From contig JAHIVO010000008.1 in assembly GCA_018816445.1 (NCBI GenBank), positions 1-37,902 on the forward strand: DNA of 37,902 nucleotides, written 5' to 3'. The notes beneath the pieces were generated by a model, which saw nothing but the letters and a program-made list of their open reading frames with translations, was not told the DNA's origin and made no database searches. Source of the DNA: Patescibacteria group bacterium (GTDB lineage Bacteria; Patescibacteriota; Patescibacteriia; UBA10025; JAHIVO01). Shown here one piece after another: positions 1 to 23,015 of the stretch. Every line of letters begins with the position of its first letter. Positions within the stretch are counted from its first letter, which is position 1. The position numbers were made by a program, and so were the translations under genes.

Positions 1-25
1 GGCGAACCGACAGCCTATCGGTTAA

Positions 26-47
26 CCCCGCCATGCGGCGGGGCAGG
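26..47 (-). repeat. Short palindromic element (CCTGCCCCGCCGCATGGCGGGG)
   Basis: Palindrome CCCCGCC-atg-(G)GCGGGG plus CCTG tag, sitting between a D-arm-like fragment and TTAACC of a tRNA-Asn fragment. Confidence 0.6.
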
Positions 48-107
48 CAGCCTCTACCAATTCAGACGAATTTCTAACAACTCTCTGCTCCGTGGGCCAG
101 ATTCGAA

Positions 108-142
108 TCCCGTACATTCGCTACCGCTCGTTACGGGACAAG
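108..142 (-). repeat. Short palindromic element (CTTGTCCCGTAACGAGCGGTAGCGAATGTACGGGA)
   Basis: TCCCGTA/TACGGGA termini, CTTG tag, immediately before TTCGAATC of a tRNA-like 3' fragment. Confidence 0.65.
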
Positions 143-193
143 CTGTCAGTCTTTTATAAATTAAGATGGAAAGCTCCGCGAGTCGGATTCGAA

Positions 194-233
194 TCCCGAA
201 CAGTTCTCGCTACGCTCGAACTTACGGGACAGG
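194..233 (-). repeat. Short palindromic element (CCTGTCCCGTAAGTTCGAGCGTAGCGAGAACTGTTCGGGA)
   Basis: TCCCG/CGGGA termini with inner GTTC..GAAC pairing, CCTG tag, inserted between GTCGG and TTCGAATCCGAC of a tRNA-Asn 3' fragment. Confidence 0.7.
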
Positions 234-266
234 CCGACAACCTATCTGACTAATAGAAGCGGAAAG

Positions 267-338
267 CTCCGCGAGTCGGATTCGAACCGACAGCCTATCG
301 GTTAACAGCCGATTGCTCTACCATTGAGCTATCGCGGA
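267..338 (-). tRNA. tRNA-Asn (anticodon GTT)
   Basis: Minus-strand cloverleaf TCCGCGA-TA-GCTC..GAGC-A-ATCGG CTGTTAA CCGAT-AGGCT-GTCGG TTCGAAT CCGAC-TCGCGGA-G; anticodon GTT; no encoded CCA. Confidence 0.95.
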
Positions 339-383
339 GCTTTCCGCTTTATTTAACTATACTATCGATTGTAAATACCATTG

Positions 384-422
384 CTTGCCCCGCATAACTG
401 AACGCAGTTAAGTTTGTGCGAG
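384..422 (+). repeat. Short palindromic element (CTTGCCCCGCATAACTGAACGCAGTTAAGTTTGTGCGAG) flanked by a 9-bp direct repeat
   Basis: Direct repeats ataccattg at 375-383 and 423-431; inner AACTG..CAGTT hairpin. Confidence 0.6.
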
Positions 423-443
423 ATACCATTGAGCTACCCAGGA
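423..443 (-). pseudogene. Truncated tRNA 5' half
   Basis: Minus strand TCCTGGGTAGCTCAATGGTAT resembles an acceptor 5' strand plus D-arm; no remaining tRNA body after the inserted element. Confidence 0.55.
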
Positions 444-3803: not shown

Positions 3804-3846
3804 GCTTGCCCCGTAACTTTGAACGTCAGTGAAAAGTGTACGGGAC
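3804..3846 (+). repeat. Short palindromic element (GCTTGCCCCGTAAC...GTACGGGAC)
   Basis: CCCCGTA/TACGGG termini with GCTTG tag; abuts a tRNA 5' half and a 9-nt copy of tRNA-Ser sequence. Confidence 0.65.
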
Positions 3847-3878
3847 ACGTGCGCCTTAAACCGCTCGGCCATCTTTCC
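3847..3878 (-). pseudogene. 5' half of a class II tRNA (Ser/Leu-like), interrupted
   Basis: Minus strand GGAAAGATGGCCGAGCGGTTTAAGGCGCACGT is a typical Ser/Leu tRNA 5' part; continuation replaced by the palindromic element. Confidence 0.65.
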
Positions 3879-22971: not shown

Positions 22972-23015
22972 TGCTTGCCCCGCGAACCCTGAGCAGGGGC
23001 GAAGGGGAAGCGGGG
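22972..23015 (+). repeat. Composite palindromic element with GCTTG tag
   Basis: gCTTGCCCCGC-GAACCCTGAGCAGGGGCGAAGGGGAA-GCGGGG; includes a CCCTGAGC..GCGAAGGG type palindrome. Confidence 0.6.

Follow-up and report, generated by a model that had tools for sequence, protein, structure and literature searches.

Tagged hairpins and nested same-isotype tRNA genes at a tRNA-Asn locus of a Patescibacteria group bacterium

Described systems resembling the locus

REP sequences form superfamilies of short imperfect palindromes of about 20–40 bp that carry GTAG or CGTC tags (PMC3733652). The hairpins described here resemble the REP/RAYT/REPIN system in being imperfect palindromes of 19–46 nt with a short unpaired tag at one end, dispersed and sometimes arranged in inverted pairs. 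Nevertheless, their tag is CYTG instead of GTAG or CGTC, they are concentrated in tRNA genes, their polarity is fixed around an intact gene, and copies are not found beside RAYT genes, whereas REP sequences mobilized by RAYT would be expected to flank such a gene.

Fragments of tRNA genes have been described as scars of integration (PMC9897764). The present locus shares with tRNA-targeting integrative elements an intact tRNA, a displaced 3′ piece and a break in the T-loop or anticodon loop. As in att scars, direct repeats also extend to the tRNA 3′ end from a crossover in the T-loop or anticodon loop; they are exact over 17–22 nt in a second, structured-core family and similar in the hairpin family. 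However, the inserts are only about 50–300 bp long and contain no ORFs, no integrase-bearing element lies between the repeats, a hairpin sits at the break, and 5′ ends are displaced too, in several layers. Integron cassettes are likewise short units with a structured hairpin at one end that are inserted serially beside an anchor, a likeness most apparent in the core-family arrays (L220/L237 and L235). Yet attC ends are RYYYAAC and GTTRRRY, whereas the hairpin ends here read directly as CYTGYCCCG and CGGGR; the anchor is a tRNA gene, there is no cassette ORF, and no integron integrase was identified.

Rickettsia palindromic elements and mitochondrial hairpin elements (sponge RHE; PMC2800124) are also small mobile hairpins able to enter genes, but the descriptions consulted contain no tRNA-replacement geometry (PMC2800124; PMC3733652). 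Group I introns of bacterial tRNA genes are present at the same syntenic tRNA-Asn in two relatives (G004 and G005); they are self-splicing RNAs, whereas the CYTG hairpins have no such structure. The literature searched yielded no account in which tRNA genes are nested with same-isotype pieces and tagged hairpins mark their bounds, an absence that does not prove novelty.

The tRNA-Asn locus and its hairpin family

The window, i.e., the whole stretch of DNA analysed (37,902 nucleotides), is the entire contig C77 of a 1.34 Mb genome in 97 contigs that is 92% complete. A sequence-only reading had reported four tagged palindromes next to or within tRNA fragments at 1–443, and direct reading finds all of them (Table 1). 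On the minus strand, hairpin A lies exactly between ...GATAGGTTGTCGG and the tRNA-Asn 3′ piece TTCGAATCCGACTCGCGGAGC. Hairpin B exactly precedes TTCGAATCTGGCCC, at the same place as A (53/54) in a more diverged piece. The other two had been said to abut tRNA sequence; their association with tRNA holds, but both actually lie inside it. Hairpin C splits the anticodon loop (between CTG and TTAACCGATAGG) of a third Asn piece, and it stands at the contig end because the window begins at base 1 of C77, its left end falling within the hairpin array. Hairpin D occupies the D-loop of the displaced 5′ piece. It has kept its CTTG tag while its arms are damaged (CCCCGC...GCGAGA), and it is the only one among A–D with a clear flanking direct repeat (TACCATTG, 376–383 and 424–431). 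Rfam returned tRNA matches only in the window. Misassembly is unlikely as a general cause, since the same structures occur in relatives assembled as 2–3 contigs.

Table 1. Features of the window, with the loci of the second (structured-core) family in the last line
Feature	Position	Strand	Evidence
Displaced tRNA-Asn piece C, cut off by contig end	3–25	−	sequence match
Tag-hairpin C, 22 nt, in anticodon loop (34/35) of displaced piece C	26–47	−	direct reading, pattern search, excision test, polarity count
Displaced tRNA 3′ piece B, TTCGAATCTGGCCCACGGAGC	87–107	−	weaker Asn-like match, joined score 15.6
Tag-hairpin B, CTTG-TCCCG...CGGGA, preceding TTCGAATC in displaced 3′ piece B	108–142	−	direct reading, pattern search, polarity count
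Displaced tRNA-Asn 3′ piece A, 21 nt, identical to intact gene (266–338)	173–193	−	sequence match
Tag-hairpin A, CCTG-TCCCG...CGGGA, at T-loop 53/54 of displaced 3′ piece A, tag toward intact tRNA	194–233	−	direct reading, pattern search, excision test, polarity count
Short piece of tRNA, GATAGGTTGTCGG, next to the tag end of hairpin A	234–246	−	direct reading; joined match L13/R21
18-bp perfect palindrome lengthening the acceptor stem	257–274, partner 332–349		palindrome search
Intact tRNA-Asn(GTT), current gene of the locus	266–338	−	ARAGORN; Rfam 76.2 bits; synteny across the six genomes of the order
Degenerate tag-hairpin D, reversed relative to tRNA strand, tag toward intact tRNA	384–423	+	direct reading
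Displaced tRNA-Asn 5′ piece, 85% to tRNA nt 1–20	424–443	−	sequence match
rpoD, synteny anchor	576–1814	−	synteny
Tag-hairpin between tRNA-Ser(GGA) and displaced tRNA 5′ piece (3850–3871), tag toward tRNA	3805–3845	+	pattern search, polarity count
Tag-hairpin away from any tRNA	22974–23015	+	pattern search
Second-family loci	L196, L191, L156, L161, L164, L220/L237, L235, own C84:6022–6127, C93:51553–51696		

The pattern CYTGYCCCGN{4,34}CGGGR has 28 matches in the genome of the window, 26 of them distinct, while a backward-pattern control has none. The hairpins are 19–46 nt long and fall into two classes (19–23 and 33–46 nt), and their outermost pair covaries (C-G 17, T-A 6 and C-A 2; n = 25). 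About 18 of the 26 distinct copies are found at tRNA loci or within ~400 bp of a tRNA gene, neighbourhoods estimated at 2–3% of the genome, and about 8 lie away from tRNAs. The strict pattern overlooks degenerate copies. Most copies are without a target duplication. The earlier claim of a genuine tagged-hairpin family tied to tRNA loci is borne out by these counts, and the search of the genome and its relatives revealed a strong tRNA association and not random placement. Another type of tag-hairpin, GGAGTTTA-YCCCG...CGGGR, was also seen at tRNA pieces (L054, L134 and L059). At locus L116 of the same genome (C5:1–7000), a complete tRNA-Thr is the apex of a CTTG-CCCCGCCAGA...TCTGGCGGGG hairpin, which sits in the D-loop of another complete tRNA-Thr(GGT) whose anticodon loop holds an additional hairpin.

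Insertion points were determined by removing each copy by script, joining the flanks and scoring the tRNA match across the joint. With a threshold of ≥14, tRNA sequence is seamlessly rejoined by excision of 25 of the 56 copies in the order's six genomes. Cuts placed at random in a comparable locus set reached a score of 16 in 4 of 300 cases. The 25 joints fall in the T-loop (8, at positions including 53/54 and 57/58), the anticodon loop (4), the D-loop (3), the D-stem beside the loop (4), the anticodon stem (3), the T-stem (2) and the acceptor stem (1). Only the T-loop is clearly enriched (8/25 vs 12% under a uniform expectation). Strict insertion into loops was rejected, loops as a whole holding 15 of 25 joints against 47% expected, which is not significant. 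The T-loop targeting proposed in the sequence-only reading is therefore right insofar as the T-loop is over-represented, but it is not the whole story, and insertions in the D-arm and anticodon loop are equally real.

The strict 57/58 T-loop form is rare, since among 380 Patescibacteria genomes it was found only in that of the window. A scan of GTDB representatives (85,000 species) gave 12 matches, about ten of them convincing tRNA 3′ pieces, in records titled Kerfeldbacteria (3), Falkowbacteria, other Patescibacteria, Saganbacteria, Tritonobacter (2), Elusimicrobia and Cryomorphaceae. A match in Myxococcales looks like chance.

Nested tRNA genes, tag polarity and related loci

For each intact tRNA gene, as defined by ARAGORN, recurrences of its own 5′ half upstream and its own 3′ half downstream were sought over 400 nt, with the halves of other isotypes as the comparison. 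In the genome of the window, same-isotype 5′ pieces lie upstream of 16 of 42 tRNAs (0.2 expected) and 3′ pieces downstream of 8 of 42 (0.5 expected), with 0 and 3 pieces, respectively, on the wrong side. The corresponding figures for G002–G005 are 5–7 and 3–9 of 31–34 tRNAs, with 0 to 2 expected. About half of the tRNAs of the genome are affected, and many displaced pieces occur without a strict hairpin. The intact gene is thus enclosed by what is left of an older same-isotype gene, not by random tRNA debris. For instance, two-sided cases are known from the window, from a tRNA-Ile (L111) and from a tRNA-Leu (L131), layered arrays from the window, L130 and C12, and two-sided or layered nesting from C39 tRNA-Ile, C40 tRNA-Asp, C12 tRNA-Arg and L111 tRNA-Ile. 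Nesting is cleanest at L131 (record titled Saganbacteria), where an older tRNA-Leu flanks a complete one, with its D-arm to one side, its T-arm to the other and a hairpin in each of the two loops.

Of the 31 strict copies that lie near a tRNA in the order, 27 point their tag at the intact tRNA and four do not (one-sided binomial about 2e-5, this and the other statistics being based on copies and not on independent events). The 9 upstream copies all have the opposite orientation to the downstream ones. Where the rule is followed, the end of the hairpin abuts the displaced piece. In other organisms, 12 of 12 tags point toward the tRNA, most of these copies having been found with a pattern that fixes T-loop orientation. 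Independent insertion into dead copies would not produce a polarity that is fixed relative to the intact gene. Same-isotype pieces and tag polarity together suggest, therefore, that the hairpins mark the outer boundary of units supplying a fresh tRNA or tRNA end. These two observations go beyond the earlier reading of the window.

Except for details, the order of rpoD and then tRNA-Asn is conserved across six genomes of the order. At this locus G002 has a single tRNA gene, G001 two intact tandem copies, and G004 one tRNA gene carrying a group I intron. In G005 an intact intron-free gene is followed by a displaced old 3′ part that retains its group I intron, and in G003 and the window an intact gene has pieces on both sides together with hairpins. 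It follows that the displaced parts are parts of the old gene and that the process recurred in different genera. Group I introns in tRNA-Asn correspond to loci L259 and L260. In addition, acceptor stems are extended outward by 8–20 paired bases in 9 of the 42 tRNAs of the genome and in many tRNAs of the order. At orthologous tRNA-Asn genes of several genera the pairing is kept while the sequence differs, and a T-run follows in G002, G003 and G005; the extension is therefore read as terminator-like, and the idea of the tRNA as the apex of a mobile hairpin, to which it had given rise, was dropped.

The hairpin at C45:8126 separates a complete metG from the initial ~48 bases of an older copy and is reversed at this junction (L208:3573–3740). 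Old and new copies show six coding differences, of which five are synonymous, so the displaced piece was probably a working allele when it was displaced.

Inserts of 90–190 bp make up a second family. They rebuild the tRNA from C56/G57 of the T-loop through its 3′ end and terminate in a conserved core, GGANTCGAAGGGCAGAAGCGA...GCGCTGCCCAGGAC, which is followed immediately by the displaced piece. The structured core measures ~90–115 nt, its left end is the inverse complement of the target T-arm, and the family leaves exact 17–22 nt direct repeats of tRNA 3′ ends. With model R1, 22 copies were recovered from five of the order's six genomes, most beside tRNAs and some in tandem. A search of Rfam found no family for these inserts, only tRNA and chance matches.

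No transposase or recombinase linked to the hairpin family was found. Y1_Tnp genes are present in five of six genomes of the order, but the 60.5 kb around 19 Y1/RAYT genes contain no strict copy, and G003 has copies and no Y1_Tnp hit. A link to RAYT was accordingly rejected, and the earlier suggestion of REP-like mobilization by RAYT/Y1 enzymes is unsupported. At least one PF00589 gene occurs in each of the six genomes, one of them beside tRNA-Arg(TCT). A Xer-like tyrosine recombinase beside tRNA-Arg(TCT) was seen in the order at L265, L266, L270 and L277 and near L272 and L273; in the G002 and G003 versions the HxxR motif appears, by eye, to have been lost.

Possible origins of the nested genes

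The hairpin family, the seamless tRNA junctions, the same-isotype pieces on the predicted side, the fixed polarity and the recurrence at one syntenic locus in several genera are direct observations. The nesting and the tagged breaks suggest an undescribed way of overwriting essential RNA genes. Tentatively, each hairpin may be the outer end of a short unit whose insertion overwrites a tRNA gene and puts a restored copy in its place. Such a unit would bring either a new tRNA end or an entire tRNA, then a spacer, and at its far end a short tRNA stretch and a tag-hairpin, the hairpin presumably serving as the recognition end. It would enter the resident gene at a defined point in the T-loop, anticodon loop or D-arm, so that the resident part on one side and the fresh part would make an intact gene, while the old part would be pushed outward, directly behind the hairpin. 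Repeated rounds on either side would give layered arrays. Insertion may be Campbell-like, possibly via a folded single strand as in integron cassettes, with an enzyme acting in trans. With slightly more reserve, it is conceivable that an undescribed class of mobile units overwrites tRNA genes, and occasionally others such as metG, by inserting a restored copy between inward-tagged hairpins, yielding nested or layered tRNA genes, and acts in several phyla through recognition of the folded hairpin. The geometry, with resident part, fresh part, spacer, short tRNA stretch, tag-hairpin and old part, is that of a Campbell-type insertion, and the terminal hairpin and serial arrays recall integron cassettes or single-strand transposons. 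The metG case, which has the same geometry as the tRNA cases, and the exact repeats made by the second family both count in favour of insertion units. Against them, units of 50–300 bp would be very short for double-stranded site-specific recombination, and no free insertion unit was found. The lack of a linked transposase or recombinase, the many displaced pieces with no strict hairpin, the hairpins away from tRNAs and the four exceptions to the polarity rule weigh against them too. Piece C, farthest from the intact gene yet identical to it, also does not fit a simple order in which the newest piece lies nearest.

Campbell-like insertion of hairpin-ended units is favoured, with hairpin-driven template switching as its main and serious rival. 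In the latter, hairpins in tRNA genes would stall replication, repair by strand switching or unequal recombination would duplicate one tRNA end and leave the hairpin at the junction, and selection would retain those outcomes in which the tRNA is intact. Since Patescibacteria usually carry a tRNA gene only once, nothing but restored versions would survive. Partial direct duplications at junctions, two recent Lys cases in which the repeat continues into the terminator and the lack of any enzyme found are all consistent with this account. It is nonetheless rather unlikely, as the same tag and arms recur at many unrelated loci and in other phyla, the sequence following the intact copy is usually not that following the displaced piece (L111), and the metG copies differ mostly at synonymous sites, like diverged alleles and not like a decaying duplicate.

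REP-like elements moved by RAYT/Y1 might instead insert independently into tRNA sequence and accumulate in dead copies, since living ones cannot bear them. The tag plus imperfect hairpin, the usual lack of target duplication and the Y1_Tnp genes of the order would fit; the empty surroundings of the RAYT genes, the copies in G003, the deviating tag and a polarity that is fixed relative to the intact tRNA and opposite on its two sides make this improbable. A little less probable still is that the displaced pieces are att repeats of islands integrated by tyrosine integrases, later reduced to scars and invaded by hairpins. Integrases do use the T-loop, anticodon loop and 3′ end of tRNAs, and complete-plus-partial tRNA pairs are their usual signature (PMC9897764); the repeats of the second family span T-loop to tRNA end, and the PF00589 genes described above are in agreement. 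But the inserts are gene-free and only 50–300 bp long, 5′ pieces are displaced as often as 3′ pieces, about half of the tRNAs of one genome are affected, and known att sites have no conserved hairpin at the crossover. Finally, seamless junctions in loops and the genuine group I introns at the same locus in G004 and G005 might suggest that the outer tRNA works and has the hairpins removed from it as introns. This is highly improbable, given that a complete tRNA interrupts the outer genes, arms are often missing from them, the hairpins are oppositely oriented in the two halves, and an intact gene of the same isotype is present.

Usually, tRNA genes are regarded as the most stable genes of a small genome. 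Here they appear to have been overwritten time and again, and every round has left a datable fossil next to the new gene. If dedicated machinery is responsible, mobile elements of a new class would be at work, each repairing through its insertion the essential gene that it breaks; if hairpin-driven repair is responsible, these loci would be an unusually clear natural record of that process. Either way, nested pieces can mislead tRNA annotation, and the polarity rule makes the mechanism testable.
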